Shown here: positions 26,488-42,015 of the stretch, one piece after another
How the letters are laid out: each line of letters starts with the position of its first letter
Position numbering within the stretch: position 1 is the first letter of the stretch
DNA from: an uncultured Clostridium sp.
GTDB taxonomy: Bacteria > Bacillota > Clostridia > TANB77 > CAG-508
Reading direction: 5' to 3'
Length of the DNA stretch: 48,926 bases
NCBI GenBank assembly: GCA_945946655.1
Contig: CAMEWM010000002.1
Span: 1 to 48,926 of the forward strand
Translations under genes and position numbers: made by a program
Notes under the pieces: generated by a model
The model's database searches: none
What the model was told of the DNA's origin: nothing
What the model saw: only the letters and a program-made list of their open reading frames with translations

Positions 26488-26517
26488 GATATATCACCAC
26501 TCCTTTAAGATGTGCTT

Positions 26518-26546
26518 ATTATACCATTTTTTACAAAATAAGTCAA
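26518..26546 (-). promoter_or_regulatory. Strong SigA-type promoter of veg
   Basis: TTGACT and TATAAT with a 17-base spacer on the minus strand. The Bacillus veg promoter is also known to be very strong. Confidence 0.85.
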
Positions 26547-26674
26547 AAAGCGTCATTACAGTTTATTCTTCTGTAACTAGCTATTTACAAGTCTTTTAAC
26601 GTTTTCATCGTCTTTTATTACAATTGTATTACATTTTTATAAATTGCTTATCTGCTCTAGTATCTAAATATATA

Positions 26675-26714
26675 AAAATAGATATACTAATCTATAGTAT
26701 ATCTATTTTTATTG
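26675..26714 (-). terminator. Terminator of the first TasA-like gene
   Basis: A perfect 15-base-pair stem AAAATAGATATACTA and its complement with a five-base loop, about 20 bases after the stop. The region 26550-26674 shows nothing else that I can assign. Confidence 0.75.
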
Positions 26715-26734
26715 TTTTGTTTATTTTTGTATCA

Positions 26735-27727
26735 CTATGGAGCTGTTGCTGTAAATTGTAAATCAAATTTAATATTTGAACCTGATGCACCATTTTCACA
26801 GTCAACATCTTGTCCTTCAACCCACATATATACTCTTATCTTTGTTACTCCTGCTTTTAATTGCTTAAACTCTATAGTTGATGTACTGCTATCAACTGTT
26901 TTGTATGCAGGAGTTATAGCAGAGAAATATGTATCACTTGGATTTGCAGTTGTTACTTGTTTCATTGGTATAGTGCTTGCTGGTATATTAGCTTTTATTC
27001 CATAATAAGGTATTAATGAACCTCCTGTAGTAGTTGTCGTTACTTGGTAATAATCACGAGCAGCTGCCACACCTAATGATGTATGTGTATTATAGTTTGG
27101 TTCCCATATATCTGCTGTTCCACCAGTTAAAGATAGTTTTCTCATAGTAGAAGGATCTGTATCTGCAGTAGTATTTCCCTCTGTTATAAAAGCTACACGT
27201 GCCGCATTTTTTAATCCTTGATCCTTATCTCCAGCAAATGTAACCTTTGAATTAGGCGTCATATATATAGTTGTATCTGTATCAACTTTTAAGAATAAAT
27301 CAAATGCAATGTATCTTCCATTTGTTCCTGTTGTGTCTGTTTGTTTTGTTGCTGATAAATAATACTCTCCACCTTTAGTATCATCTGCCTCAACAACGCC
27401 ATAGAATATATCCATTTTTCCATCGGTTACATTTCCGGCACTTGATACTGGCTCTAGATTTGTTTCAGGCAATTGATTTACTAAATCTGTATAAGTTCCT
27501 GCAGCTGTTGACAAATCTTTTTTTTCTAGTACAGTTTTCCAATTTGTTGCATCTGCTGAAATCTGTAAACCATTAGATGCCTTAACATTTACTTGCAATG
27601 TACTTACAGTTACTGTTTGGTTAGCTGTAAACCATGCATAAGATGATGTGATTAGTAATAATGCCATTAATAATAGTAGCAATATTGCTGATTTTAAACT
27701 TGTTTTCTTTTGCTTCTTTTTACTCAT
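26735..27727 (-). CDS. TasA/camelysin-like secreted protein (SipW-type signal)
   Basis: This 330-residue exported protein has a basic N-terminus (MSKKKQKKTSLK), a hydrophobic core of L-rich text and the SipW-type cleavage region TSSYAWFTANQTVTV. The rest is beta-rich and Thr/Ser-rich. Near the C-terminus is MWVEGQDVDCENGASGSNIKFDLQF, with a close counterpart (IWIEGDDPDCVDALIGG) in the next gene. The N-terminal pattern is that of substrates of SipW-like signal peptidases, which include the fibre proteins TasA and camelysin. It is monocistronic, with a strong promoter and a row of phased boxes upstream, so it could be the most abundant subunit. The ATG at 27727 follows GAGAGGA. Confidence 0.82.
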   Translation of the reverse strand: MSKKKQKKTSLKSAILLLLLMALLLITSSYAWFTANQTVTVSTLQVNVKASNGLQISADATNWKTVLEKKDLSTAAGTYTDLVNQLPETNLEPVSSAGNVTDGKMDIFYGVVEADDTKGGEYYLSATKQTDTTGTNGRYIAFDLFLKVDTDTTIYMTPNSKVTFAGDKDQGLKNAARVAFITEGNTTADTDPSTMRKLSLTGGTADIWEPNYNTHTSLGVAAARDYYQVTTTTTGGSLIPYYGIKANIPASTIPMKQVTTANPSDTYFSAITPAYKTVDSSTSTIEFKQLKAGVTKIRVYMWVEGQDVDCENGASGSNIKFDLQFTATAP

Positions 27728-27768
27728 TTTATATAATTCCTCTCTCTCCTTATTTTCTATGTATATTA

Positions 27769-27797
27769 AAGATACCACACTATAAATTTCAAGTCAA
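27769..27797 (-). promoter_or_regulatory. SigA-type promoter of the TasA-like gene
   Basis: TTGACT and TATCTT with a 17-base spacer on the minus strand, about 40 bases before the start. Confidence 0.65.
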
Positions 27798-27812
27798 TAT
27801 TTGCTCTATATT

Positions 27813-27868
27813 TGTAATTTAATTGTAATTTTATGTAATATTATGTAATACAAATGTATATTTTGTAA
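27813..27868. promoter_or_regulatory. Helically phased TGTAA/TTACA boxes upstream of the TasA-like promoter
   Basis: Five TGTAA copies, starting at 27813, 27824, 27834, 27844 and 27864, plus one variant TGTAT at 27855, occur at 9-11 base intervals, that is, one per DNA turn on the same face. They lie just upstream of the -35 box. This is the usual layout for cooperative binding of an activator or response regulator. The regulator is unknown. Confidence 0.5.
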
Positions 27869-27890
27869 CATTTTACTATCAAAAAGAAAA

Positions 27891-27917
27891 AAGTGTCATT
27901 TTTTATAAATAACACTC
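27891..27917 (-). terminator. Terminator after the 260-residue anchored protein gene
   Basis: A stem AGTGTCATTT/AAATAACACT with one mismatch, followed on the minus strand by TTTTTTCTTTTT. Confidence 0.7.
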
Positions 27918-27946
27918 TTAACCTTTGATAAAATATCATTTTTAAT

Positions 27947-28729
27947 TTATTCTTGTTTAATATGTTCTTCTGTTATATCCATATGCATTTTCATCATTCC
28001 GCCAATTAAGGCATCAACACAATCTGGATCATCTCCTTCAATCCAAATTACTATTGTAAATCTGTCTATATCACCAGATTTAAAATCTTTCCTTTGTTTT
28101 TCCAATACAGTTAAATCATTTTTAAATGCAATAGTTCCTGTTTCTGCTTGCCCTGTTCTTTCATTTGCCTTTGCATACACTTCTTTTTCTCCATTTCTAA
28201 ACACCATGACTCTTATTGCTCTATCTACATTTTTTACAACGTCATCAACTAATATTGTATACCAATAATTTATGGTATCTGCACCTTTATTTTCTATATA
28301 AAAAGTATATGCTATATAATTATCTCCATTATGAGTTCCTTCTCCTTGTGTATCTATGTCAGTTGGAAGCCAATTAATTGATATGTTATCTACGAATTCT
28401 AACTGTTCCACTTTTAATATTTTCTTCTCATCTTTTTCTGACAATCTCTCATACATTACAAGTCCACTCTTTCTTGCAAGTTCATCATCTAGAGCAACTG
28501 TGAAAGCTCCTCCTTCATAAAATAATCTTAACAAGAAATATATTATAATTAAAAATAATGCTATAATTAAAAGTCCTAACTTTATTATCCTTATATTCTT
28601 TTCTCTTCTTTTTAGCTTTTCTGAATCAAGTTCAACTCTGCCTTTATCTTCTTTAGATAATATTTTATTTTTTTCAATAATATTTTTTACTTGTTCATCT
28701 GCATCATTTTTCTCTTTTTTCTTAAACAT
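27947..28729 (-). CDS. Membrane-anchored surface protein related to the TasA-like set
   Basis: This 260-residue protein has a charged cytoplasmic N-terminus of about 48 residues (rich in Lys and Glu), one membrane helix (LGLLIIALFLIIIYFLLRLFY, about residues 51-72) and an external domain. That domain contains IAYTFYIENKGADTINYWYTILVDDV and IWIEGDDPDCVDALIGGMMKMHMD, the latter shared in pattern with the previous gene. Bacterial surface proteins of this layout are often co-encoded with SipW-type peptidases. Unlike its neighbour it lacks a Tyr-Ala-x-Phe cleavage site, so it may remain anchored and act as a base or partner. Function is inferred only from context. Confidence 0.75.
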   Translation of the reverse strand: MFKKKEKNDADEQVKNIIEKNKILSKEDKGRVELDSEKLKRREKNIRIIKLGLLIIALFLIIIYFLLRLFYEGGAFTVALDDELARKSGLVMYERLSEKDEKKILKVEQLEFVDNISINWLPTDIDTQGEGTHNGDNYIAYTFYIENKGADTINYWYTILVDDVVKNVDRAIRVMVFRNGEKEVYAKANERTGQAETGTIAFKNDLTVLEKQRKDFKSGDIDRFTIVIWIEGDDPDCVDALIGGMMKMHMDITEEHIKQE

Positions 28730-28880
28730 TCTTCATTCTCCTCTTTTGCATTACATATTATTAAAGAAAAAATAATCTCCTCTCTTCTTTTTATAAATCA
28801 TTGATTTAGTTTTCATTTTATAGTACAATTATTATAATATATTTAAATATAATAAATCAATATTTTAATGAGGTAAACAT

Positions 28881-29480
28881 ATGAAAATTTCTAAAAAGTT
28901 TATGTTAATAGTTCTTACTTGTATTTTGTTAGTTTTATTAATGTTTCTAATTTCTCAGGTTTATGCGAAATATATAACTTCTGTATCTGGAAATGCTTCT
29001 ATAACAATATCTAGATGGAATATAAAAGTTAATGATTTGTCTATAAAAAACAATTCGGATATTTCTTCTAAAATCGTTCCTGTATTTCCAGGAAATGACA
29101 ATATTGCAAGTAATATAATAGCTCCTACAGCGGAAGGATATTTCGATTTAGTATTTGATTTTACAGACGTTGACGTTTCTTTTAAATATGATATTAATAT
29201 TACAGCAGATGACAGTAGTGCCGTATCTGATATAGTTGCAACCGGATATTCTATAGATGGAGGTAATAAAGTAACTTTTACAGACTTTAATTCTCCTATC
29301 AGTGATACAATAAAATTATCTGATAATGTAAATTCAAGAACTATTCGTGTATATGTTATGTGGAACGACGATCCAGATACTTCTTCTATGAACAACATTG
29401 ATGATACAGCATCCACTTTAAAGTCCGATAGTTCAGCTATTTTAAAAGTTTCTATTGGTTTTACTCAAGTGGCAGAATAA
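28881..29480 (+). CDS. TasA-like secreted protein (SipW-type signal)
   Basis: This 199-residue protein has a SipW-type signal: MKISKKF, a hydrophobic run, then ISQVYAKYITSVSGNASITISRWNIKVN. Beta-strand-rich sequence follows, with PVFPGNDNIASNIIAPTAEGYFDLVFDFTDVDVSFKYDI, the kind of immunoglobulin-like strand pattern seen in TasA and camelysin. It is the only gene of the set on the plus strand between the two minus-strand units, and is divergent from the 260-residue anchored protein. GAGGT precedes the ATG. A strong terminator follows. Confidence 0.8.
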   Translation: MKISKKFMLIVLTCILLVLLMFLISQVYAKYITSVSGNASITISRWNIKVNDLSIKNNSDISSKIVPVFPGNDNIASNIIAPTAEGYFDLVFDFTDVDVSFKYDINITADDSSAVSDIVATGYSIDGGNKVTFTDFNSPISDTIKLSDNVNSRTIRVYVMWNDDPDTSSMNNIDDTASTLKSDSSAILKVSIGFTQVAE

Positions 29481-29499
29481 ATTAGATTTAATAAAAAGC

Positions 29500-29536
29500 G
29501 GTTAAAACTATAATTTTAATAGTTTTAACCTTTTTT
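29500..29536. terminator. Terminator between convergent TasA-like genes
   Basis: A perfect 11-base-pair stem GGTTAAAACTA/TAGTTTTAACC, with a T-run on the plus side and a shorter one on the minus side. It can serve both the plus-strand gene and the ten-gene minus-strand operon. Confidence 0.85.
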
Positions 29537-29579
29537 GTAATTCAATGTCTTGCTTTTATTTATCTAATATTTCCTAATA

Positions 29580-30200
29580 TTATTTTTTTTGCTCAGCAAT
29601 TAAGAATAAAGATAGATGTAAGCTACTTTCATCAGGATAGTTCTGATTAAACTCATAAGCTTTTTCTCCCCAATAAGTATCAGCTTCATCATCTCCTGAT
29701 TCATATGGCCACTCTACAGATATTATAAATAGTCCTTCTCCATTTGTGTTCTCAAGTTGAGTTTTATCTACTGTCACCGTTATTTTGAAAGGATAATTGT
29801 TATTAATTCTATCATTTAGTTCTTCTTCTGTACAATTTTCTCCAACTGTATATCTTTCACCTAGTACAGTTAGAGATTGATATTTATATGTTAAGTCTGC
29901 TACTGATTCTCCTGCATTTTGTACTTTAATTTCCTTTGTATATGTTTGCATTCCAGGATATATAGTACTAACATCTATTTCAATATTTGTAACAGCCTCA
30001 TCATCTCCAACTTTAAATGTAACATTCCAAGATGTAACATGTGCAGATAATCCGCCTGATACTCTAGTAGCAAAAACAAACCATGCATATGAATTAAATA
30101 CTAAGAGTACAACCAAAATTATTAAGGTTCTTAATTTAACATATTTTTTTATAAAACCTTTTTTATTATCTTTTGAAGTATCATTTTTTATCTTCTTCAC
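29580..30200 (-). CDS. TasA-like secreted protein, last gene of the ten-gene operon
   Basis: This roughly 206-residue protein has a basic N-terminus, a hydrophobic core LIILVVLLVF and the SipW-type cleavage text NSYAWFVFATRVSGGLSAHVTSWNVTFKV. The mature part includes STIYPGMQTYTKEIKVQNAGESVADLTYKYQSL, an Ig-like strand pattern typical of TasA relatives. The start is uncertain: GTG at 30200 follows AGAGGAA by a suitable distance, while the ATG at 30248 would overlap the upstream signal peptidase gene by 68 bases. Either way the two genes overlap, which indicates translational coupling of peptidase and substrate. Confidence 0.82.
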   Translation of the reverse strand: MKKIKNDTSKDNKKGFIKKYVKLRTLIILVVLLVFNSYAWFVFATRVSGGLSAHVTSWNVTFKVGDDEAVTNIEIDVSTIYPGMQTYTKEIKVQNAGESVADLTYKYQSLTVLGERYTVGENCTEEELNDRINNNYPFKITVTVDKTQLENTNGEGLFIISVEWPYESGDDEADTYWGEKAYEFNQNYPDESSLHLSLFLIAEQKK

Positions 30201-30789
30201 TACGTTCCTCTTTTTCATCTTTATCATTTTCTTCTTGATCTTCGTCATCTTTTTCTTTACGTATTTTAATAATTTTTATTATTATTAAAACTGTAAGTGG
30301 TATAAAAATCAAGAAATAAAATCCATATAAATTATTTATTATCTTACTTATGAAACTTAAAATATGTGTTTTATATATTACGACTCCATAAACTTGACTC
30401 TCCGATACAACAGGATCTTCTTCAGTATTTGCGATTCCTTTGGTATGGAACTTATAACTATCTCCATCTCTTTCTACGTCTATAACTCTATGAGTAATTA
30501 TTTTGTCTTGAAAAGAACCTTTTTCTCCTAAGTATACTATGTCATCTCCAATTTTTATTTTACTTGGATCAATCTCTTTTGATATTAATATATCTCCAAC
30601 TTTATATTCTGGTACCATACTTTCTGTTACAATATTGAATACTCTTATACCACCAATACTAGCATTGTTGTTTGTAAATCTCTGAAATAAAACAACTATT
30701 AATATTAATACTACTAAAATCACTAATAAGTAATATAAAATATTTCCTATTATTTTTAATGCTTTATTTTCACTTATTTTCTTTGCCAT
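30181..30789 (-). CDS. SipW-like (ER-type) signal peptidase I
   Basis: This 202-residue membrane protease has an N-terminal helix (residues 13-35), the catalytic Ser57 in TESMVPEYKVGD, and His100 in ITHRV, where bacterial P-type enzymes have Lys. The downstream GIANTEEDPV supplies the acidic residue, a second helix spans about residues 148-176, and a charged, Glu/Lys-rich cytoplasmic tail follows. The Ser-His arrangement is that of SipW and archaeal/ER signal peptidases, which mature TasA-like fibre subunits. Its gene overlaps the TasA-like gene that follows, so that protein is the probable substrate. Confidence 0.93.
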   Translation of the reverse strand: MAKKISENKALKIIGNILYYLLVILVVLILIVVLFQRFTNNNASIGGIRVFNIVTESMVPEYKVGDILISKEIDPSKIKIGDDIVYLGEKGSFQDKIITHRVIDVERDGDSYKFHTKGIANTEEDPVVSESQVYGVVIYKTHILSFISKIINNLYGFYFLIFIPLTVLIIIKIIKIRKEKDDEDQEENDKDEKEERSEEDKK

Positions 30790-30806
30790 TTTATTTTCCT
30801 TTCGTT

Positions 30807-31937
30807 CTACTTTTTTATTTGCGCTAAGTATTTATTAATATGTTTATTAAATATATTTTGTATTTCTTGTAAAGTTGCTTGACTTCTATATTTTATAACT
30901 GCATATTTTTCTCCAATCATATCTTTTAAATCTTTCATTGATATGTCGGTATTCATATCTATAACTTTCTCTAGCATCTTGCTAATTACAATATCTTGTA
31001 CTTCTTTTTGTTTTTCTTCATTTTCTAATTCATCTTCTTTGTCTTTATCAATGGTACTCATTATTAGATAATTTAAAAAGAATGAATCATCCATTAGACT
31101 CTTTAAGTCACCATCATCATTATAGTCCTTTTTTTCATCCATCTTTTTAGTTTTGTCATCCATGTTTTCTCTTAAATATGACCATAATTTCATTGCATAC
31201 TGGAAATTAACGTTTTTTAAAACAACATTTGTCTTTTTAATTGGTTCTCTAACCAATGTTATATGCTTTTTATCTATAACTTTGTATACTTCTGCATTTG
31301 TTAAATCTGATATCTTTACTTCTAGTTTTGCAATTCTTTCAAGCAAATCGTCTGGATTACCTGATTCTCCTTTCGAATCTTCATCATCAATTTTTGCACT
31401 TAGAGATAAATTTAAATCCACTTTTTCATCACCAATTTTTGACGTTCCGGTATATCCAAAAAATTTATCATTCTTTGAACCTTCATTTTGAAATTGTTCT
31501 AGTGTTTTTTTCTTTTGACTTAAAAAGAATTTCATATTCTGAATAAGAGTATAAATGAGTCTATTTTCATAAGTGTCATAACTTTCTTCTTTATCTATAT
31601 TTAAAATTTTAGATGGTTTTACATCTCCTGTTTTCTTATCTACTTCCTGAATGAAATTAGTATTTTTAGATAGATTTTTTATACTTTCAACTGTTATTCT
31701 TCTTGCACGCTCTATTTTTACTACTTCTTCTTCATTAATAATAAACCTATTTGGACTACGAAAGATATTATCTATATAAGGAACTGTTTCTTCCATTATC
31801 TCTATCCACTCAGTATCTTTTATTACTTTTTCATAATCTGTCTGCACATGCAATTTTGAATCCAGATTTTTTTTAAATGTTTCTTCTTTTTGCTTACTTG
31901 CACTTTGATATATATCAATTATTCGTGAATCTTCCAT
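30807..31937 (-). CDS. DUF2357/McrC-like protein without a visible nuclease motif
   Basis: This 376-residue, highly charged protein has no signal or membrane segment. The segment YDTYENRLIYTLIQNMKFFL (about residues 120-140) resembles the conserved Tyr-Asp-Thr-x-Glu-Asn-Arg motif of DUF2357/McrC-type proteins, which partner McrB-like GTPases or ATPases. LKNVNFQYAMKLWSYLRENM (about 240-260) is similar to a second element of that family. I do not see a PD-(D/E)XK nuclease motif. It follows the McrB-like AAA+ gene by 44 bases, the order expected of an mcrB-mcrC pair. The family call is by motif and context and needs a profile search. Confidence 0.55.
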   Translation of the reverse strand: MEDSRIIDIYQSASKQKEETFKKNLDSKLHVQTDYEKVIKDTEWIEIMEETVPYIDNIFRSPNRFIINEEEVVKIERARRITVESIKNLSKNTNFIQEVDKKTGDVKPSKILNIDKEESYDTYENRLIYTLIQNMKFFLSQKKKTLEQFQNEGSKNDKFFGYTGTSKIGDEKVDLNLSLSAKIDDEDSKGESGNPDDLLERIAKLEVKISDLTNAEVYKVIDKKHITLVREPIKKTNVVLKNVNFQYAMKLWSYLRENMDDKTKKMDEKKDYNDDGDLKSLMDDSFFLNYLIMSTIDKDKEDELENEEKQKEVQDIVISKMLEKVIDMNTDISMKDLKDMIGEKYAVIKYRSQATLQEIQNIFNKHINKYLAQIKK

Positions 31938-31981
31938 CTTTCCTCCTATAATTTATTATTTACTGATTAGCTTTTTACAAA

Positions 31982-33508
31982 CTATGTAAGCTTCTTTAGT
32001 CTCATCATATAATCTATACATTCTTTCATTTTTCCTTTTCCAAATGTTTTATCTAAGAATTCTATATATGGTGTTATTTCATCTCTTATATACGAAATAT
32101 TTAACTGTTCAAATTTTCTCAATACTTTTTTAGCCATGAAGTAGTCAACACCTGCAATTTCGTCTCCTCCGCATGCTACATATACAGGTACAAATTTCTT
32201 CATATGAGAAACAATACGGTTACCAAATGCTATACGGAAATGTTTTATTGTATAGTCATCCATTTGTTCTATTTTAGCAAGAGTATCTTCAGAAACCTGA
32301 TGTTCCTGCATTGCTGTTGTAAATAACTGATCTAAATATGTATAATTTATATCCATTGGTGGCATATCTATTGGTTCAAATACTTTACCCTTATCGTTAA
32401 TATCTATTGGCATTGCTCTATCATAAACCTTATCTGTAACCATAAATGTAGAGTCATCGTTATTGATTGTTCCTATATACCACATATTTGGCGGTATTTT
32501 CAACTTTCCATCTATTAATCTTTTAGGGTCTGTCTTCCAACTACTTGGAACGATTTCTATAACCCACTCATTTTTATTTGGCATTTCTAGAATTGATAAC
32601 ATTTCAGCAAAATAATACTCAACACGTGCAATGTTCATCTCATCTAGAATTATTGTATATACATCATCTGTATATCCTGCTTTATACATTTCTTTTAAAA
32701 CTTCAGTTTCATTAAACTTTTTTGTAAATTCATTAAAATACCCAAACAACTCAGTTCTATCTCTCCAAGAAGGTTGTACAGATGCAACACATGAATCATG
32801 TTTTAAAAATTTTCCCCATGCATATGCTAGAGATGTTTTACCAGTTCCTGATATACCTTGTAATATAACAAGTTTTGTTGATGCCAATGCAGATATAAAT
32901 AGTCTCATCATATCTATTGTATAATATAGATGAAGTCTTGATGCAGCAAAATTTCTAAAGTGATCACATAGTTCAGGAAGTGTAAATGCATTACCATAAT
33001 TCTTAATCTTATAATTAGCAAACTGTTCATCTATAGCTATAAGTTTAGCAAATCTAGTACCTTGTTGTGTTGGATCCTCCTCTTCTTTTTCGTCGCTCTG
33101 TTCTTCTTCTGGACTTTCTCCAGGCTTTAATCCTAGTTGTGAAACCTTCATTGCTAAAATCTCATCTTTTTCTTTTACAAGTTTAGCTACTTGTCCATTT
33201 AAAGAAGAAATTTCTTGCAATAAAGCATCTTGGTCAATTGTTTTCTTACGTATCTTACCATATTTTCGTATAGTAAAAAATATAAGGAGTCCCACTAGCA
33301 CAAATATTAGCACAATTAATCCTATAGCAATTACAACTAAAATCCACTCTGGCATAGAAAAATCACCTTTATAATTATCAATTATGCTTGAATATGACTT
33401 TACATCTACAAGTACTTTTAGTCCTTTCCATATTCCACTAAACATCATTCCTATTCCAGAAAAGAACTGTCCTAGAAATTCATACAAAAATTTTGTAAAA
33501 GTTTCCAT
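31982..33508 (-). CDS. Membrane-anchored McrB-like AAA+ ATPase
   Basis: This 508-residue protein has a hydrophobic N-terminal segment (about residues 8-35) and a clear helix (about 55-82). A coiled-coil-like stretch (85-120) and an acidic linker (ESPEEEQSDEKEEEDP) follow. The AAA+ domain starts near residue 200: Walker A GISGTGKT (218-225), Walker B TIILDEMN (285-292) followed by IARVEYYFAEMLSILE, sensor GTINNDDST (346-354) and an arginine in VYDRA. The DEMN...EML and GTINNDDST text is that of the McrB/MoxR-like clade. McrB normally drives DNA restriction from the cytosol; here the enzyme is tied to the membrane within a surface-protein operon. Its activity is inferred, not shown. Confidence 0.82.
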   Translation of the reverse strand: METFTKFLYEFLGQFFSGIGMMFSGIWKGLKVLVDVKSYSSIIDNYKGDFSMPEWILVVIAIGLIVLIFVLVGLLIFFTIRKYGKIRKKTIDQDALLQEISSLNGQVAKLVKEKDEILAMKVSQLGLKPGESPEEEQSDEKEEEDPTQQGTRFAKLIAIDEQFANYKIKNYGNAFTLPELCDHFRNFAASRLHLYYTIDMMRLFISALASTKLVILQGISGTGKTSLAYAWGKFLKHDSCVASVQPSWRDRTELFGYFNEFTKKFNETEVLKEMYKAGYTDDVYTIILDEMNIARVEYYFAEMLSILEMPNKNEWVIEIVPSSWKTDPKRLIDGKLKIPPNMWYIGTINNDDSTFMVTDKVYDRAMPIDINDKGKVFEPIDMPPMDINYTYLDQLFTTAMQEHQVSEDTLAKIEQMDDYTIKHFRIAFGNRIVSHMKKFVPVYVACGGDEIAGVDYFMAKKVLRKFEQLNISYIRDEITPYIEFLDKTFGKGKMKECIDYMMRLKKLT

Positions 33509-33537
33509 TTTTTACCTCATTATATTTTCTTTTGATA

Positions 33538-34536
33538 TTATATTTTTATTAATCTCTTTATAATAGATTCATTTGCAATTATTGTATTATAATATTCTAG
33601 TTTTCTACTAGCTATTGTATAATAAAATGCATTTAATCTTTCAAAATTAGCATATTGTGGCTCAAATGAGTCATCTAATATAACTGCAAATTTAAATCCA
33701 TTTCTCATCAATTCATAAATATTTTCTTTATTTTTTAAAAATTCTTTATATGTTATTTTAAAATTTATTTTGTCTTGAACAGCAGAATTATTTATAATTT
33801 TTAATAAACTTGCTAATTTTCTGCTTTTGTTAAATAAGTTTGTGTTAAATTCTATTATGTATTGCCTTTTAAAATTACCTCTTAATATATCTTGAATAAC
33901 TTCTACTGATATTAAGTTATATTCTACAAATAGTTTGTCCTCTGATATTAATCCTGAATTAAAAACATTCTCTATAGCTTGATTACTATATATCATTGGG
34001 AATTTAATATTGTATTTTAAATTTACTCTATTTGCATTATTTGCACCTTCATAATCTGAAATTTTTAGTACAAACTCTTCTGTCTCAAATTTTTTTAAAA
34101 ATTTTTCTTTTTTATTTGAATACTCTATAAATATATTATAAAAATTTTTTTTAAAATCTTCATTATCTTTTTTTAAGAGTTTCTTTCTTATTTTATATAA
34201 TTTTTCTATAATTTCATCTATATCAACCCTATAAGAAATCTTATCAAAATATAATATGTAATAGAAAAATAATCCCATATTTTCTATTAATTTTCTTTTT
34301 TCGGGCATATCTCTTACAATACTAGCTTCCGCTTCTTTTATTGCATTCAAATAGTTTTTTCTAAAGGTTAGATTATCATCTTTAGGATAGAAGTTATAAA
34401 ATCTAACATTCAAATATGCGTCCATATACCTTAATGCTATTTTTTTGCTGTATGAATTTTCAAAAATCAGCTTAATGTATGAAAACACTTCCTCTTGTGT
34501 AATTTTTGTATACTCTTGCATTACATTGCTTGTCAT
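33538..34536 (-). CDS. Protein of unknown function, upstream of the AAA+ gene
   Basis: This 332-residue, Lys/Asn/Phe-rich protein has no signal peptide or membrane segment. The N-terminal half is helical (TKITQEEVFSYIKLIFENSYSKKIALRYMDAY). The C-terminal half alternates strands and helices: QYIIEFNTNLF, INFKITYKEFLKNK, FKFAVILDDSF, which loosely recalls a degenerate TIM-barrel such as an EAL domain, but no catalytic motif is visible. It lies 29 bases before the McrB-like AAA+ gene and 17 bases after a secreted-protein gene, so it is probably the third component of the intracellular module. I do not recognise a family. Confidence 0.7.
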   Translation of the reverse strand: MTSNVMQEYTKITQEEVFSYIKLIFENSYSKKIALRYMDAYLNVRFYNFYPKDDNLTFRKNYLNAIKEAEASIVRDMPEKRKLIENMGLFFYYILYFDKISYRVDIDEIIEKLYKIRKKLLKKDNEDFKKNFYNIFIEYSNKKEKFLKKFETEEFVLKISDYEGANNANRVNLKYNIKFPMIYSNQAIENVFNSGLISEDKLFVEYNLISVEVIQDILRGNFKRQYIIEFNTNLFNKSRKLASLLKIINNSAVQDKINFKITYKEFLKNKENIYELMRNGFKFAVILDDSFEPQYANFERLNAFYYTIASRKLEYYNTIIANESIIKRLIKI

Positions 34537-34553
34537 ATTTTATAACCTCCAAA

Positions 34554-35486
34554 CTATTTTGTAGTAACTTTTATTATTGATTTAGAATTTATTATAGGAT
34601 AAGTATAATCTTTATTTACATCTACTTTATAAAATCTTACAACAGCACTAGATATTGGCTCTACTTTAAAAGTCATACTGTTTATATAATTACTCCCATC
34701 TATATTTGTAGTAGTTGTGTTAATAGCATTTAAATAATTGGTATTCGTCATATCTAGCAATATCTCTTTAGGATCAAACTCTAGTGTAATTAAAGCTGAA
34801 TAACATTTTTCTTTATTTTCATTTGATAAATTCAAAAAAGTATCTACATCTATTTTATCACCCACATTATATGAGTCAAATGCTGTTTGCACCTTATAAT
34901 ATGATAGGGTATTTGTTATATTTAAGTCCAAATACTGACTTGATGATGAATCTACAATTTCATACGATAGGCTTTCTTTTCCAACTACTAATGTAAATCT
35001 AGCCTTTAATGTTTTTGTATATTGTGCAGTTGATGTAGCTGTTATCTGTACTGTTACTTTATCTCCTGTTTGCAATCCTGTATTTGGAGTTATTATCAAG
35101 TTAAAATAATCACTATTAGTATCTGCCGAAATAACTCCACTTGTTTTACTTAATTGGCAGGTTGCATTTGACGTACATTCATATGCAATGTCATATCCTA
35201 TATCGTATGTAGCCTTTTTTAAGTTATTTTCCATACTGTTCATATTTACTGTAATTGTATAAGGATCTACACCTGTCCAGTTATCAATTTGATAAATTGC
35301 TAGACTTTCTTTTAACTTATCACTATAGAAATAAAATTCTTTTGTCCTGACAAAAAAGTTATTTATTCCATTTAAAACATATCTACCAAAAGCAGAAATT
35401 AATGTTATAAAACATAAAGCTAAAACAAGTAGTATTATTACTTGTTGTTTTTTATAAATGCTTTTTGTTTTACTTCCTTTTTGCAT
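34554..35486 (-). CDS. Secreted TasA-like protein with a membrane anchor or signal
   Basis: This 310-residue protein has a basic start, a hydrophobic helix (VIILLVLALCFITLISAF, about residues 15-32) and then FGRYVLNGINNFFVRTKEFYFYSDKL, a pattern seen in surface proteins co-encoded with SipW-like peptidases. The outer part is a beta-sandwich type: TITVNMNSMENN, CTSNATCQLSKTSG with two cysteines that may form a disulfide, and KVTVQITATSTAQYTKTLKARFTL. The C-terminal VVRFYKVDVNKDYTYPI resembles a cohesin-like end. It is operon gene 5, the largest secreted protein of the ten-gene cluster. Confidence 0.72.
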   Translation of the reverse strand: MQKGSKTKSIYKKQQVIILLVLALCFITLISAFGRYVLNGINNFFVRTKEFYFYSDKLKESLAIYQIDNWTGVDPYTITVNMNSMENNLKKATYDIGYDIAYECTSNATCQLSKTSGVISADTNSDYFNLIITPNTGLQTGDKVTVQITATSTAQYTKTLKARFTLVVGKESLSYEIVDSSSSQYLDLNITNTLSYYKVQTAFDSYNVGDKIDVDTFLNLSNENKEKCYSALITLEFDPKEILLDMTNTNYLNAINTTTTNIDGSNYINSMTFKVEPISSAVVRFYKVDVNKDYTYPIINSKSIIKVTTK

Positions 35487-35505
35487 ATATGTTACCTTCC
35501 TTAGT

Positions 35506-36078
35506 TTATATTACCTGTCTTGAATTCACTGATATTTCTATCCCCTCAATTATGTCTTGATAATTGATAGTATTATATTTTTTAGGAAAATATAATACTA
35601 ATTGATACACATTTGTTTCTTTTTTTGTATATGTAAATGTTTCTGTATCTGTCGTCATTTTTCTAAAATATGTGCTATCATTATCTTGTATGATATCATT
35701 AGTTTTTATTATATTAGTTGCTCCTGCATCATTATAATTTTCATTCATATATAGTTCATATTCTATTGGTAAGTTGGTAGTAGCTCTAATTGTTAAGTCA
35801 TATTCCATATCAGTCTCACACGTATTTGTTCCTTCTGTATTTGATATAGAAAAATTATACACATATGGATCATCACTTGGAAATAATGAATCCAAATTTA
35901 AATTCATATTCTGATAGTCCTTATTTATTACATAAAAAGCTACCTGTATATTTGGATTTGCATTTGCTCCACTCTCATATCTAGACAAAGTAAAAGAAAT
36001 CAACTTAATTAAAAGAATTAAGCTTAGTAAAAGTATTAATATTTTAACAATTTTTTTTGCTAATTTTTTGTTTTTCAT
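35506..36078 (-). CDS. TasA-like secreted protein
   Basis: This 190-residue exported protein has a hydrophobic helix (IVKILILLLSLILLIKLISF) followed by TLSRYESGANANPNIQVAFYVI, a SipW-type mature start. The outer part is beta-rich with DDPYVYNFSISNTEGTNTCETDMEYDLTIRATTNLPIEYELY, typical of the Ig-like fibre subunits. It lies 24 bases after a signal peptidase gene, its probable processing enzyme. No catalytic motif is visible. Confidence 0.78.
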   Translation of the reverse strand: MKNKKLAKKIVKILILLLSLILLIKLISFTLSRYESGANANPNIQVAFYVINKDYQNMNLNLDSLFPSDDPYVYNFSISNTEGTNTCETDMEYDLTIRATTNLPIEYELYMNENYNDAGATNIIKTNDIIQDNDSTYFRKMTTDTETFTYTKKETNVYQLVLYFPKKYNTINYQDIIEGIEISVNSRQVI

Positions 36079-36102
36079 TCTTTTACTTCTCCTTTGTGAA
36101 CT

Positions 36103-36603
36103 TTATTCTTTTTTATGAGGCTTATAATAAACAACAGCAGTGATTAATATTACAGTAATTACAATTCCTATTAAAACTGACGGCGTCGTTAATACTTTTT
36201 TCCAAATTCCTACATGTGGAATTACAGCAACAACCTTTCCTAATATTTGACTATACGATATTGGCAAATCTTGACTACTATTTGCATCTCCTTTTGTTAT
36301 TATTTGTGTTCCACTTATTTCTAAAACTCTATGCGTCACAAAATGCTCATTTTCTTGGTAAACCACTATATCATTTTTTTTAATTTTATCTGTTATCTTT
36401 ACAATAACCAAATCTCCTATTTCTATTGTCCCAGACATACTTCCAGTTGCTACCTCAAATGCTGTATATCCAAAAATATTAGCATTTTGTTTATGTTGAA
36501 CTTTTGTCTGTATTACATAACCTACCGCAATTATAACTAATATAGATATAATTACAATTACTATATCTAATATTATAGATAAAATTTTTTGCAATATTTT
36601 CAT
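36103..36603 (-). CDS. SipW-like (ER-type) signal peptidase I
   Basis: This 166-residue peptidase has an N-terminal helix (residues 5-32) and a catalytic Ser55 in VATGSMSGTIEIGDLVIV. His91 in FVTHRV and the acidic loop TKGDANSSQD follow. A C-terminal helix (LIGIVITVILITAVVYY) is followed by PHKKE. It is catalytically complete and closest in layout to Bacillus SipW. It lies between two genes for TasA-like proteins, which it probably processes. Confidence 0.94.
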   Translation of the reverse strand: MKILQKILSIILDIVIVIISILVIIAVGYVIQTKVQHKQNANIFGYTAFEVATGSMSGTIEIGDLVIVKITDKIKKNDIVVYQENEHFVTHRVLEISGTQIITKGDANSSQDLPISYSQILGKVVAVIPHVGIWKKVLTTPSVLIGIVITVILITAVVYYKPHKKE

Positions 36604-36611
36604 TATCTCTC

Positions 36612-37232
36612 CTATGGTACATATTCTTTTATTTCTTCACCAAGATATTGAGTTGCTGTAACATTAATTGGTATGTTTATTGTATAACTCTTTAGTGTTC
36701 CTATTGTAGTATCCATTTTATTGTTATTTTCATCATTTTCCCAGTTTATTTTTACTTTAATTTTATTTGTTTTTCCATTTTTTATATCACTAAGTGGTAT
36801 AACTCCTGTATATGTGTTCTCATCAGTTCTTATTAATGTGTTGTTATTTTCAATTTCTTCTACAGATACTATGTTTATTCTATCATTAATTAAATACGAT
36901 TTATCTAAGTTTACAGAATATTTTATAGATACATTGGTATTTTTAGGGTCTATTATTATATAAAAACTTCCTGAAACTCCTGGTGCTGCTTTTCCTGGTG
37001 CCACATGACTATTTTCTTCGATTTCAAAAGTATCTATCGTAAATTTGTTACTATTCTCAGAAGTTATATTATTGTTATTAACATATATTAGCCATGTTGC
37101 ATTATCTTGTTTTACAACTCCTTGCCCTTCACTATAAAAAAGGGCATATGTATTGATTAATCTATATGCCACAACTAAAATCATAAATAATATTACTATA
37201 ATTAAGATTTTCTTTAATATTTTTTTATTCAT
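36612..37232 (-). CDS. TasA-like secreted protein
   Basis: This 206-residue exported protein has a hydrophobic core (ILIIVILFMILVVAYRLI) and the SipW-type mature start NTYALFYSEGQGVVKQDNATWLIYVN. The mature part has HVAPGKAAPGVSGSFYIIIDPKNTNVSIKYSVNLD, an Ig-like strand pattern shared with the 199-residue plus-strand protein (PGNDN...GYFDLVF). It is gene 2 of the operon, between a degenerate and an intact signal peptidase. Confidence 0.82.
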   Translation of the reverse strand: MNKKILKKILIIVILFMILVVAYRLINTYALFYSEGQGVVKQDNATWLIYVNNNNITSENSNKFTIDTFEIEENSHVAPGKAAPGVSGSFYIIIDPKNTNVSIKYSVNLDKSYLINDRINIVSVEEIENNNTLIRTDENTYTGVIPLSDIKNGKTNKIKVKINWENDENNNKMDTTIGTLKSYTINIPINVTATQYLGEEIKEYVP

Positions 37233-37241
37233 TATACTTCC

Positions 37242-37778
37242 TTATTTAGAATTTTCTTTTGACTGTTTTCTTTCTTCTTTAATTTCTGAAAATACAACTG
37301 TTAATTCATAAAGGAATGCTATTAATGATGGAAATACTATCAAAAATAAGAATCCCCATTTTGACTCTAAAACACCTAATATTCCACCAACAACAGGAAT
37401 AACTGTTGCATTTTTTGTTGCTCCTAAAACATATTGACTAGAGACTTCATGATCTTTACCAACCGTAAATGTTATCTCTTTAGATGTTATAATTTCTTTA
37501 TTAGTAACTTGTGCTAAAGCAACTTCTACCTTTTTATCTTGTGAATTATAGAAAAAAACTTTATCGCCTATATCTATTTTACTTTTATTTCCTGAATTTA
37601 CTATTATTAAATCTCCTTTGTTGAAATCTGGAGTTAGATCCTCATTGGTAACTAAAATTATAGAATTGTCACCAAATTCACTTATTTTATACTCATTGTA
37701 TGATAATAAACATATCGTTGTAAGAACTGCTATTATAGCATAAATTATAACGAGTATATTAACAATAATTCTTTTCAT
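37242..37778 (-). CDS. Signal peptidase I-like protein that lacks catalytic residues
   Basis: This 178-residue protein has the layout of the SipW family: an N-terminal helix (residues 3-27), the strand pair VTNEDLTPDFNKGDLIIV, the IDIGDKVFFY motif, IPVVGGILGV and a C-terminal helix. The catalytic Ser-Met pair is replaced by Asp-Leu (position 47), and no histidine stands where relatives have Thr-His-Arg. It should therefore be inactive and may be a scaffold or regulator. It is the first gene of the ten-gene operon. The ATG at 37778 follows GAGGGAGG; an upstream TTG at 37796 is not needed. Confidence 0.82.
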   Translation of the reverse strand: MKRIIVNILVIIYAIIAVLTTICLLSYNEYKISEFGDNSIILVTNEDLTPDFNKGDLIIVNSGNKSKIDIGDKVFFYNSQDKKVEVALAQVTNKEIITSKEITFTVGKDHEVSSQYVLGATKNATVIPVVGGILGVLESKWGFLFLIVFPSLIAFLYELTVVFSEIKEERKQSKENSK

Positions 37779-37832
37779 TTTTTCCTCCCTCGACAATTCT
37801 TTTATCGACTAAAAATTATTAGATTTTTAATA

Positions 37833-37861
37833 ACTATATCATACCGATTTATTTTTTTCAA
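37833..37861 (-). promoter_or_regulatory. SigA-type promoter of the ten-gene surface operon
   Basis: TTGAAA and TATAGT with a 17-base spacer on the minus strand, about 55 bases before the first gene. No other promoter is obvious inside the operon, where gaps are 9-44 bases. Confidence 0.6.
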
Positions 37862-37907
37862 TATATTTTGACATTTTTCTTAGTGTATATTTTTCCAGCT
37901 AATAGAT

Positions 37908-37941
37908 AAAAATGGCTTGTTTGTTCAAGCCATTTTTTTGC
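37908..37941 (-). terminator. Terminator of the sigma/anti-sigma operon
   Basis: A perfect 12-base-pair stem AAAAATGGCTTG/CAAGCCATTTTT with a six-base loop and T-run, 12 bases after the anti-sigma stop. Confidence 0.88.
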
Positions 37942-37952
37942 TTTGTCTTATT

Positions 37953-39020
37953 CTATTTTTTTGTTAATTCTACAATCTTTTCTTCTCCTTCAATTTCGTA
38001 TTTTATATACATTTTTTCTGTTGTCATCCTCTTATTAACAGGAAATTCTACTCTTATTCTATCTCCATTTGTTCCAGTATAGTAATATCCATCACTCGAT
38101 TTATATTCATTTCCATTCTCATCATATAAAGTAACTTTTTTGCCATTTATACCTTTTATATTAGCTATGAAAATCGTACTTGTATCTGTTACATAAAATC
38201 TTTCTAGCTGAAAGTTCTCTACATTTTTAGAGACTAAATATTCATTTCCTATTGACGAATAGAACTTATCTGGAACATCTAACTCTATATTCCATATACT
38301 GTTTGAAATTTTTTCATAGTCTCCCCCCAACATCTTATTTCCTTGTCCATATCCAATTCCATACACTTTCAAATGTAGCTTTTTAGCTCTTGGGAAATTT
38401 TCTTTTGCTTTAATCATGTTATTAATAATCACATTATCTTTCTTATATGTTATATATTGAGCATTAGATGATGACCAATACTCTGGAATTTCTCCATTTT
38501 CCAATTTTATTTTCTTCTCTTTTGCAAATTCTCTTACTATATTTCTATTAGTTCCTAATGGATCTATATAGTACACTTCATTATTTTCATTATATAGCAC
38601 ATATGCAAAACTCATTCCCTCTTCATCTATTTCAATACCATCAGACATTTTAAAATTAAATTCTATGCTAATATCATTATCTGACATAAAGAATGAATCT
38701 ATTTTTAATCCAACTCCATCAGAATATATATAATCCATATCTAGATTTTCTACATATCCATTAGTGATCGCGTCTGATATGCTTTTTGAACCATATACTA
38801 CATTTCTATTTTCATATTCTACTATTGCATTTTTTGCTTGCACGCCACCTACTACTAATAAACATATAACTAGCATTGCAGCAGCTACTCTTTTCATATA
38901 AGAATATTTTTTTACCTTTTCATCTTTATTTTTCATTTGATACTCCTTTCCAAATTCAGACATAGCGATATTTAATTTTGTGTTCTCTAGAATTTTATCT
39001 GTAAAATCTTTATTCTCCAT
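37953..39020 (-). CDS. DUF4179-type membrane protein, probable anti-sigma factor
   Basis: This 355-residue protein has a cytoplasmic N-terminus of about 45 residues, one membrane helix (VAAAMLVICLLVVGGVQA, about residues 45-62) and a large external domain. The outer part (KSISDAITNGYVENLDMDYIYSDGVGLKIDSFFMSDNDISIEFNF) is the DUF4179 pattern common in proteins encoded with clostridial ECF sigma factors. Its start codon overlaps the end of the sigma gene by 11 bases, so the two are translated together. By analogy it holds the sigma factor at the membrane and releases it on an external signal. Confidence 0.85.
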   Translation of the reverse strand: MENKDFTDKILENTKLNIAMSEFGKEYQMKNKDEKVKKYSYMKRVAAAMLVICLLVVGGVQAKNAIVEYENRNVVYGSKSISDAITNGYVENLDMDYIYSDGVGLKIDSFFMSDNDISIEFNFKMSDGIEIDEEGMSFAYVLYNENNEVYYIDPLGTNRNIVREFAKEKKIKLENGEIPEYWSSSNAQYITYKKDNVIINNMIKAKENFPRAKKLHLKVYGIGYGQGNKMLGGDYEKISNSIWNIELDVPDKFYSSIGNEYLVSKNVENFQLERFYVTDTSTIFIANIKGINGKKVTLYDENGNEYKSSDGYYYTGTNGDRIRVEFPVNKRMTTEKMYIKYEIEGEEKIVELTKK

Positions 39021-39558
39021 AACTATATCCTCCTTCTTCTAAAAATTTCTTTATCTTTTTCCTTATTCTGTGTAGTTTAGTTTTTGCATTTACCTCTGTA
39101 ATTTGCATCTCTTTGGCAATTTCACTTATCGTTTTAGAATAATAATAAAATAATATAAAAATATTTCTATCATCTTCTTTCATTGCATCTAAAGCTTTCT
39201 TTATAATCTTATTCTTTTCTTTTTGCTCAACTAATAATTCTATATCTTTCGATTCGCTAATTATATCTACATATTTTTCTATGTTGTCATTCAGATATTG
39301 ATTTCTAAATTTATTTTTTACCAAATTTCTTGTTATTTTAGCTATATATGGCTCAATCGGCATTTCTATTTTCATTTTATCTCTATTATTCCACACAGCT
39401 AAAAACACATCTGAAGCAATTTCCTCAATATCCTCATCCGATAATTTGCTAGACATATTCGTAATTATTTTATATACATAATTACTGTATTTCTTGACTA
39501 TTTCTTCAATTTCAAATTTATTTTCATATTTATAAGTACGTATTAAATTCTTTTCCAA
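39010..39558 (-). CDS. ECF-type RNA polymerase sigma factor
   Basis: This 182-residue protein has a sigma region 2 (KKYSNYVYKIITNMSSKLSDEDIEEIASDVFLAVWNN, then PYIAKITRNLVKNKFRN) and region 4 (ALDAMKEDDRNIFILFYYYSKTISEIAKEMQITEVNAKTKLHRIRKKIKKFL, helix-turn-helix). It lacks regions 1 and 3, as ECF factors do. The chosen start is a TTG preceded by AAGGAG at a rather long distance; a palindrome TTTGTATACAAA sits between them. It is first in an operon with a DUF4179 anti-sigma gene, and next to the surface operons it may control. Confidence 0.92.
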   Translation of the reverse strand: MEKNLIRTYKYENKFEIEEIVKKYSNYVYKIITNMSSKLSDEDIEEIASDVFLAVWNNRDKMKIEMPIEPYIAKITRNLVKNKFRNQYLNDNIEKYVDIISESKDIELLVEQKEKNKIIKKALDAMKEDDRNIFILFYYYSKTISEIAKEMQITEVNAKTKLHRIRKKIKKFLEEGGYSYGE

Positions 39559-39727
39559 TTTGTATACAAATCTCCTTTTATTCTTTAGATATATCTACTT
39601 ATATATTAACATTTTCTTAAAAAAGGTTACAGTTTTTTATAATATTTTTTCTAGCTTCAGAAACATTTAATTCGACTCCTTCTCTAAGCTCTATCGAGAA
39701 AATAAACAACATTTTTAATATTATATG

Positions 39728-39750
39728 TGTAAATTGTAATATAAATGTAA
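39728..39750 (+). promoter_or_regulatory. TGTAA boxes upstream of the 326-residue protein gene
   Basis: Three TGTAA copies (starting 39728, 39735 and 39746) lie about 22 bases before the -35 box. The same pentamer occurs as a phased row before the TasA-like gene at 27813, which suggests a common regulator. In this AT-rich DNA three copies alone could be chance. Confidence 0.3.
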
Positions 39751-39771
39751 TAAAATAACTCTTATTTATTA

Positions 39772-39800
39772 TTGCTATTTTTCTTAAAAATGTTTATAAT
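39772..39800 (+). promoter_or_regulatory. Promoter of the 326-residue protein gene
   Basis: TTGCTA and TATAAT with a 17-base spacer, followed by GGAGG before the ATG. The remaining intergenic stretch (39559-39727) shows no gene or clear element to me. Confidence 0.65.
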
Positions 39801-39826
39801 ATAATTAGTATTTTTGGAGGACACAA

Positions 39827-40807
39827 ATGATTAAACTAAATTCAAAAACGAACAAAGGCAATGTCATAAAACTTATAAATATAGAAGTCGCTTCTGTTAA
39901 TGCATCATTAGACTCTCAAAAAGCATTTAGTAAACAAATACTAGTGTTTTTAAAGAGTTTTATTGGTAATGTTGAAGTTGACTCTATTTTTGCTGATAAC
40001 GTTAATAAGTTTATTTCTGATACTAGCTATTATTTGTCTAAAATAAATTCTAATATTGCTTTATACAATAATTTGTTAGAAATATTAGACAATATAAAAT
40101 TTAATTGTCCTTCTATTGAATATAGTACTACTGTTAATAAAATAACTCAATACAACAAAAAATTTGCATCTTCAACTGAAGAAATACTGAAAAATAATTC
40201 AGATATTGAGAAGTTTATACATTCTATGTCTACTATAGATATTTCTGAATATATTTCAGTTGATAACATTGATAAGATAGAAAGTTTAGCTGGCTCTGAT
40301 GACACTACAAATGATGATTCTGCTTCTAAACCAGCTCCTGCTAGAAAGAGAAAAAATTCAGTTTCATTAGTTGAAAATACTTTAACAATTTCTGAGACTA
40401 CTGGATTAGTAACTCTACCTTATAAAATTTCGGATTTAAAAAAGTCATTACGTAATGAACCAGAAAAATATGGTTCTCTATCAGATGTTATATTATCACA
40501 ATATAGTATACCGCTTAGAAATTATAGATTTTCTGCAATTTCTAGATTTAAAGAGGCATATAAATTAATAATAGATAAAGAACATGGAACAAAAAGAGAA
40601 GCATTAAACTTAGCAACAGAGTTATTTACTAATTACAATTTACATCCAGCCATAATTACAGCTTGTAAAAATTTAAACGAATTAGATGTTTACCTATCTT
40701 GTTTGGAATTTAATGAATTAGAAGATTTTCACTTCTTCAAAATAGTTTATGAAGCTTTACCAGTCCCTATAAAAAAAAGTAAACATGATAAAGAAGTAAT
40801 AGCATAA
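39827..40807 (+). CDS. Soluble protein of unknown function
   Basis: This 326-residue protein has no signal peptide or membrane segment. The N-terminal half (to about residue 160) is helical and looks coiled (DNVNKFISDTSYYLSKINSNIALYNNLLEIL). A low-complexity linker follows (GSDDTTNDDSASKPAPARKRKN), then a conserved-looking globular domain: LTISETTGLVTLPYKISDLKKSL, SLSDVILSQYSIPLRNY, ELFTNYNLHPAIITACKNLNELDVYLSCLEF. I do not recognise the family. A strong promoter and AGGAGG-like site indicate expression. It is divergent from the sigma gene, so a role in the surface system is possible but unproven. Confidence 0.75.
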   Translation: MIKLNSKTNKGNVIKLINIEVASVNASLDSQKAFSKQILVFLKSFIGNVEVDSIFADNVNKFISDTSYYLSKINSNIALYNNLLEILDNIKFNCPSIEYSTTVNKITQYNKKFASSTEEILKNNSDIEKFIHSMSTIDISEYISVDNIDKIESLAGSDDTTNDDSASKPAPARKRKNSVSLVENTLTISETTGLVTLPYKISDLKKSLRNEPEKYGSLSDVILSQYSIPLRNYRFSAISRFKEAYKLIIDKEHGTKREALNLATELFTNYNLHPAIITACKNLNELDVYLSCLEFNELEDFHFFKIVYEALPVPIKKSKHDKEVIA

Positions 40808-40839
40808 AATAAGAGTAGCTTTCTAGCTACTCTTATTTT
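40806..40839. terminator. Bidirectional terminator between the 326-residue protein and signal peptidase genes
   Basis: A perfect 15-base-pair stem AAAATAAGAGTAGCT and its complement with a four-base loop. T-runs on both sides let it serve both convergent units. It overlaps the stop codon of the plus-strand gene. Confidence 0.88.
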
Positions 40840-40845
40840 TATACT

Positions 40846-41430
40846 TTATTTATTTTTTTCTTTTTCACTTTTTCTTTTTTTAGTTAATTGTATTTTATAA
40901 CTATTGTAACTAAATCTCAAGCATAATAAGATTATTATTATAACAGTAGTTACTTTGCTTTCAAAGATTCTAAACAACCAGCCTACTACTGGAATTTTTA
41001 TTACTATTCTTGCTTTTATATCTGATAATTTTTTTTCTTCTAAATCCTCTTGATAATTATTATCTGCTTTTGTCATATATGTAAATTTTCCATCATTATT
41101 TTTTATCTTGAATAACCTGTGGTATCTTATTGAATTATCTATATCATAGCCTATGATTTCACCTTCATTAACATTTTTTACTTTACAGCCAATTAACAAA
41201 CTATTCTTTTTAATTTCAGGAGACATTGAATCCTCTTTTTCAGTAGAAATATATATATTAAATATTTGTGCATATTTTTTATTTCTAAATACATTGTTAC
41301 ATAAATATAAAATATTATATATTATCAAACAGCAAGCAAGAAAAATGCTAATACATTTTAGCATTTTTCTTAATAATATTGCTATAACTTTTTTTATTTT
41401 ATTTTTTGCCCATGAATTTTTCGTCTTCAA
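40846..41430 (-). CDS. SipW-like signal peptidase I, divergent active-site context
   Basis: This 194-residue protein has a basic N-terminus and membrane helix (CISIFLACCLIIYNILYLC), Ser68 in EKEDSMSPEIKKNSLLIG and His104 in IRYHRLF, then the acidic loop TKADNNYQED and a C-terminal helix. The catalytic Ser and His are kept, but the usual Gly-Asp after the serine motif is Asn-Ser and the Thr before His is Tyr, so it is a diverged member. The start is a TTG that lies 32 bases inside the upstream peptidase gene, implying translational coupling. It is the last gene of the giant-protein operon. Confidence 0.82.
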   Translation of the reverse strand: MKTKNSWAKNKIKKVIAILLRKMLKCISIFLACCLIIYNILYLCNNVFRNKKYAQIFNIYISTEKEDSMSPEIKKNSLLIGCKVKNVNEGEIIGYDIDNSIRYHRLFKIKNNDGKFTYMTKADNNYQEDLEEKKLSDIKARIVIKIPVVGWLFRIFESKVTTVIIIILLCLRFSYNSYKIQLTKKRKSEKEKNK

Positions 41431-41989: not shown

Positions 41990-42015
41990 TTGTTTTCCTT
42001 TCTTTTATATCTATT

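Follow-up and report, generated by a model that had tools for sequence, protein, structure and literature searches.

A CoCoPALM-type operon that joins a nuclease-less McrBC-like NTPase pair to SipW-type signal peptidases in an uncultured Clostridium: a possible role in surface-protein export

Introduction

The closest described systems are the CoCoPALM systems, which are named in one main-text paragraph of Bell et al. (eLife 2024; PMC11090510). As presented in that main text, CoCoPALM comprises a GTPase with an N-terminal transmembrane (TM) or helical region, a McrC-like partner and signal-peptidase neighbours, and no third component is named there. The same text defines the NxD form of the McrB motif, as opposed to NxxD (PMC11090510). 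The CoCoNuT cousins of these systems are predicted to defend by RNA cleavage.

Here, a stretch of 48,926 nucleotides (nt) from an uncultured Clostridium sp. (contig CAMEWM010000002.1 of assembly GCA_945946655.1), called the window below, was analysed for an operon in which a McrB-like nucleoside triphosphatase (NTPase) and a McrC-like protein lie among signal peptidases and secreted proteins. The window system resembles CoCoPALM in its NxD McrB-like motif with D/E, its N-terminal TM, its McrC-like partner and its signal-peptidase neighbours. A preliminary description of this DNA had regarded the combination as undescribed, a view that has to be given up, since this kind of system already has the name CoCoPALM in the main text of Bell et al. 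(PMC11090510). An EAL-fold partner, fusions of this partner to SipW, a degenerate peptidase paralogue and a ten-gene operon go beyond that main text; as far as it shows, the third partner is undescribed, and some details reported here may appear in the supplement of the same paper (PMC11090510). No published follow-up of CoCoPALM was found in the literature searched. We interpret the window system as a CoCoPALM-type, McrBC-like NTPase without a nuclease that has been given a new task on surface proteins, the regulation or powering of their SipW-dependent export or assembly, a function that we infer and to which a probability of about 0.58 is given.

Other known systems offer partial likenesses. 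CoCoNuT type III-A has an NxD GTPase and a McrC homologue without a nuclease, but its proteins are soluble, kinase and phosphatase genes lie alongside, and signal peptidases are lacking; no tandem HEPN or other nuclease, as in CoCoNuT, was found above cut-off in the window operon. The nearest relatives on plasmids, with 36% identity, resemble CoCoNuT type III-A. The type IV restriction system McrBC of E. coli (PDB 6ut6, 6hz4) shares the AAA+ core motifs and a DUF2357 activator, whereas the window system is NxD instead of NxxD, carries no nuclease and no recognised specificity domain, and has a membrane anchor. The Bacillus tapA-sipW-tasA operon likewise encodes SipW-type peptidase together with secreted proteins, yet the secreted proteins of the window have no TasA profile match. 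We know of no NTPase in the Bacillus operon.

The McrB-like NTPase and its DUF2357 partner

Three open reading frames, all on the minus strand, form the core of the system:

33538..34536, minus strand: X332, third conserved component, with a helical N-terminal half and a predicted EAL-type fold (residues 151-332)
31982..33508, minus strand: McrB-like NxD-branch AAA+ NTPase, 508 amino acids, with a TM at 48-84, a short helical segment, an acidic linker and an AAA+ core at about 190-505
30807..31937, minus strand: McrC-like DUF2357 protein, 376 amino acids, without a PD-(D/E)XK nuclease domain

The McrB-type motifs reported in the preliminary description (Walker A GISGTGKT, DEMN and GTINNDDST) are present in the 508-residue protein, whose profile matches E. 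coli McrB in the PDB with an E value of 6e-6. The protein also matches the PADLOC candidate model PDC-M26A (E 1.9e-34). The motif GT-x-N-x-D-[DE] is common to the members and relatives compared, with one fragmentary sequence stopping before it, while GTINNDDST itself occurs in all clade members sampled and aligns without gaps to the GTVNMDETT type of the relatives.

The N-terminal anchor and acidic linker were likewise borne out. One clear TM helix (mean Kyte-Doolittle (KD) value 3.5) is followed by RKYGKIRKK and the linker, and hydropathy places a TM within the first 110 residues of 81/81 anchored orthologues versus 0/26 soluble NxD relatives. In a FastTree phylogeny the anchored NTPases form one clade with a support of 1.0; adjoining it are soluble proteins of Deinococcus, Nostoc and Polaromonas plasmids, whose operons also encode kinases and phosphatases. 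CoCoPALM is marked by coiled coils fused to both the McrB and the McrC homologue; here, helical segments were seen in the sequence and in a low-confidence model of the DUF2357 partner (predicted local distance difference test (pLDDT) 67). On sequence grounds, the protein is a McrB-like AAA+ NTPase of the NxD branch, predicted to be anchored in the membrane by one helix. An N-terminal region homologous to FtsB is another mark of CoCoPALM, but no Pfam match to FtsB/DivIC was found in the NTPase. Its residues 1-122 weakly match the NCBIfam AmaP membrane anchor family (E 7.5e-4, below cut-off).

Pfam assigns the 376-residue protein to DUF2357 above cut-off (E 4e-12), in agreement with the proposal that it belongs to this group and lacks a nuclease. 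Thirteen of 13 family members carry DUF2357 and 0/13 a PDDEXK nuclease, against DUF2357 plus PDDEXK_7 in 10/10 soluble McrC relatives used as controls. Profile comparison of the family with these soluble relatives aligned 79 columns around the YENR segment (probability 97.5%). A conserved KTNxxLKNxNFxxAxxLW segment is followed by about 120 variable, mostly helical residues, and no conserved D/E-x-K pattern was found in this C-terminal part of the family. A hidden nuclease was rejected, as Pfam showed none and the C-terminal part has no conserved motif. Searching the PDB with the DUF2357 profile gave nothing meaningful. Judged by these matches, the protein is a McrC-like DUF2357 protein that has lost the nuclease.

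A third component, fused to SipW-type peptidases in four loci

In four loci (L107, L108, L109 and L111), X332 is fused behind a SipW-type peptidase. The fused peptidases are intact, with the Ser-Met and Thr-His-Arg motifs kept; their second hydrophobic segment is followed by a long acidic-rich linker and then by the X332 part. Both TM helices are present in three fusions; the L111 fusion starts near a contig end and only its second TM is visible. The stop codon of the fusion gene either overlaps the NTPase start or is only a few nt away from it. In the standard topology of SipW, the region after the second TM is cytoplasmic, which would place X332 of the fusions on the cytoplasmic side. Nothing else ties the McrBC-like module to the signal peptidases as directly as these fusions, which are also the best hint so far of a machine acting on surface-protein export; being natural fusions with SipW, they strengthen the case that the module acts on such export. 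Repeated short TSLYRVISV-like motifs, perhaps docking sites, were observed in the linkers of two fusions (L108:5935-8343 and L107:7974-10001), and the linker of the NTPase ends in a conserved RFxKLxxID of slightly similar look.

X332 had been described as helical, which holds for residues 1-150 of a confident AlphaFold2 model (pLDDT 88, predicted template modelling score (pTM) 0.84) and not for residues 151-332, which are modelled as an EAL-type fold. Comparison of the latter with known structures (VIA) gave a top Z of 13.3, with a root-mean-square deviation of 3.4 over 172 aligned residues, and the best 50 matches are all EAL proteins (among them MucR, MorA, LapD and FimX; Z 13.3-10.9). Foldseek also returned the EAL family (E 3e-3), and Pfam EAL appears below threshold in 3/10 X332 members. 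Descent from EAL proteins was not proven by sequence, since hhalign against the true EAL proteins of relatives was not significant, though in the expected register, and a sequence-profile search of the PDB with the X332 profile gave nothing meaningful. No invariant positions matching the EAL catalytic residues were found in 65 sequences, and the structural alignment stops about 35 residues short of the EAL C-terminus, leaving the end of the barrel missing. Because of these two features enzyme activity is unlikely, and X332 is probably a non-catalytic EAL-fold protein. The fold is shared with the EAL receptors of cyclic di-GMP (c-di-GMP), LapD and FimX, from which X332 differs in its sub-threshold sequence match as well as in its catalytic positions and barrel end.

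This likeness bears on a different explanation, that of a regulatory gate. X332 would act as a sensor, either of a signal such as c-di-GMP, to which FimX and LapD respond, or of a protein state, and the NTPase would switch SipW activity or the surface programme on and off without mechanical work on the exported proteins. The exclusively EAL matches among the best 50, the sub-threshold Pfam matches and the fusion to SipW are consistent with such a switch. The window also encodes a GGDEF-domain membrane protein (18324-19244; Pfam E 2e-26), which makes c-di-GMP synthesis likely in the source organism, and the genome encodes a true EAL protein too, so c-di-GMP signalling is possible and X332 may possibly be a receptor. 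The poorly conserved catalytic positions, the missing barrel end and the non-significant profile match to true EAL proteins speak against it, as do the absence of X332 from the f5 variant (L028, L029), L102 and L112, and the lack of any Rfam riboswitch, for c-di-GMP or otherwise, in the window or seven related loci. We consider this explanation unlikely but worth serious attention; together with defence, it is a chief rival of the export reading.

Operon, peptidases and secreted proteins

The core genes belong to a single ten-gene operon on the minus strand (37796->29580), with intergenic gaps of -68 to 44 nt. Its order is degenerate signal peptidase, secreted protein, SipW-type peptidase, two secreted proteins, X332, NTPase, DUF2357 protein, SipW-type peptidase and secreted protein; besides the core genes it includes three for signal-peptidase-like and several for secreted proteins. 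Among GTDB species, at least 557 stretches with genes for relatives came to light, and all locus counts refer to the best 80. The remaining features of the operon are:

37242..37796, minus strand: signal-peptidase paralogue that lacks the catalytic Ser/His/Asp motifs; the 62 orthologues examined are degenerate as well
36612..37232, minus strand: secreted or surface protein with an N-terminal hydrophobic segment; 54/80 loci
36103..36603, minus strand: SipW-type signal peptidase, Ser/His/Asp kept; closest window match to the peptidase half of the L107 fusion
35506..36078, minus strand: secreted or surface protein, 190 amino acids; 58/80 loci
34554..35486, minus strand: secreted or surface protein, 310 amino acids; 71/80 loci
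30181..30789, minus strand: SipW-type signal peptidase whose gene immediately follows that of the DUF2357 protein; Ser/His kept, cytoplasmic tail acidic
29580..30248, minus strand: secreted or surface protein, 222 amino acids, final operon gene; 70/80 loci
29500..29530, no strand: terminator-like hairpin, bidirectional, that closes the operon

The SipW-type peptidases exceed the cut-off of TIGR02228 (E 2.8e-24 and 3e-19); their match to the Bacillus SipW equivalog model stays below its cut-off. In the groups of 30181-30789 and 36103-36603, Ser and His are kept in nearly all copies. The orthologues of 37242-37796 gave one loose match to the Ser pattern, and none to His or Asp; this paralogue is possibly a scaffold or regulator. 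The genes next to the core encode secreted proteins or signal peptidases, and none of them gave a nuclease match above cut-off.

Conservation and distribution

The block of 332-residue-protein gene, AAA, DUF2357 and signal peptidase is conserved across about 80 further loci: DUF2357 is present in 79/80, a signal peptidase in 77/80 and, with a wider profile, the 332-residue family in 76 of the 78 that have upstream sequence. The module thus has a fixed place in this operon in uncultured bacteria with small genomes. Conservation of the gene set in about 80 genomes rules out chance grouping, and the expected linkage to signal peptidases in related genomes is near-constant. The 332-residue-protein gene is absent from two sister-family genomes and also from loci L102 and L112. 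In the variant without this gene seen at L028, L029 and L102, the peptidase lies directly before the NTPase, and one genome (G046) holds two diverged copies of the operon (L021, L027).

The anchored NTPase occurs in 13/144 related genomes, not counting three matches of low strength or of another type, and its distribution is patchy, with 2/6 genomes in the genus. All 13 positive genomes have at least three TIGR02228 peptidase matches, compared with about 16/131 of the negatives. An origin from a mobile phage or plasmid was rejected, no close relative being found in phages, viral contigs or plasmids; one phage-labelled record, MT835511, encodes a soluble 824-residue relative.

Anti-phage defence is a further explanation, in which an anchored McrBC-like complex would sense infection and the surface proteins or the membrane would be the effector. 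The relatives of the family are restriction systems, the NTPase matches a PADLOC candidate model, the closest relatives outside the clade are encoded in kinase/phosphatase operons resembling CoCoNuT type III-A, and presence is patchy in a variable site. However, the pair has no nuclease and the operon no recognised effector, secretion genes are associated in 77/80 loci, and phages, viral contigs and plasmids yielded no close relative. A defensive role is, in our estimation, quite improbable.

The veg-yabG island

About 26.4 kb separate veg (26182-26487) from yabG (contig C2:52914-53723, outside the window). This island contains the NTPase operon, further secreted proteins and a 2206-residue repetitive protein, and its features outside the operon include:

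28881..29480, plus strand: convergent secreted or surface protein, 199 amino acids; linked in 62/80 loci
27947..28729, minus strand: linked membrane/surface protein, 260 amino acids; 40/80 loci
26735..27778, minus strand: linked secreted protein, 347 amino acids, with a SipW-type signal (TIGR04088 E 0.005, below cut-off); 43/80 loci
26488..48926, no strand: part of the island of about 26.4 kb between veg and yabG

In a congener (G002), veg and yabG are adjacent and the island is missing in one piece; veg-yabG is a variable site. Such an absence would fit McrBC-like genes that reside in a surface-protein island but do not act on it. Passive co-residence of this kind is made hardly credible by a strict gene order, kept in one operon across dozens of species, by the fusions of X332 to SipW and by their translational overlap with the NTPase gene. 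Just upstream of the operon, 37953-39558 encodes an extracytoplasmic function (ECF) sigma factor and an anti-sigma-like membrane protein (DUF4179, sub-threshold), which are possible regulators. The 2206-residue protein (42016-48636) has many short Gly-Gly-Asn-type repeats, and in 42/80 loci a relative lies close to the operon; it has no Pfam match, and no hydrophobic N-terminal segment was seen in the reading frame as called.

Proposed mechanism and implications

The preferred reading, that of an NTPase regulating or powering SipW-dependent export or assembly, starts from a McrBC-derived pair that has lost its DNA-cutting nuclease. By its sequence the McrB-like protein is anchored in the membrane through a single helix; it would form an AAA+ ring like that of McrB in the cytoplasm, and the DUF2357 protein may act as activator or adaptor of the ring, as the DUF2357 part of McrC does. 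X332 would tie the ring to SipW-type peptidases on the cytoplasmic side, as the natural peptidase fusions suggest, and NTP hydrolysis would drive or gate the steps by which the surface proteins of the operon are exported, processed or assembled. The more specific version, a DNA-restriction motor converted to a membrane machine that uses an EAL-fold adaptor on the inner face of SipW and powers or gates export and assembly of a surface-protein array, is offered tentatively.

Several observations weigh against this reading. The operon, peptidases and secretion proposed in the preliminary description stand, but profiles do not support the TasA-like nature of the secreted proteins, as none of the six scanned matched Pfam TasA/Peptidase_M73 at E up to 1; what speaks for it is only the sub-threshold SipW-type signal in 26735-27778 and the gene order. 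TasA scaffolds are described in the title of PMC9674648 as assembling by donor-strand exchange, so a motor is not obviously needed. The association with peptidase counts is partly circular, the operon itself carrying three. Many system-negative relatives still have SipW-type genes, and SipW therefore does not depend on the NTPase system; most SipW-bearing relatives lack it. Patchy presence and a variable insertion site also fit a defence island, and two other congeners (L192, L193) have different genes at the veg-yabG site, one of them PezT-like. The predicted model of the DUF2357 protein is poor (pLDDT 67) and unfit for a fold search.

Taken as a whole, the earlier interpretation is partly supported. 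An unrelated family for the 376-residue protein, an intact nuclease in it and peptidases unlinked in related genomes, named beforehand as grounds for abandoning it, were looked for; the protein proved to be DUF2357, no nuclease was found and the linkage held in 77/80 loci. The role in surface-fibre assembly or export is what we infer. The X332-SipW fusions provide a concrete, testable physical link for a system previously known, as far as could be found, only from one paragraph and its gene neighbourhood. If the proposal is true, an NTPase family known from anti-phage defence would have been reused outside defence, and a partner that spends energy would be dedicated to SipW-type export. In the more specific version, Gram-positive-type bacteria would have in this system an energised form of surface-protein export that is new as a class.

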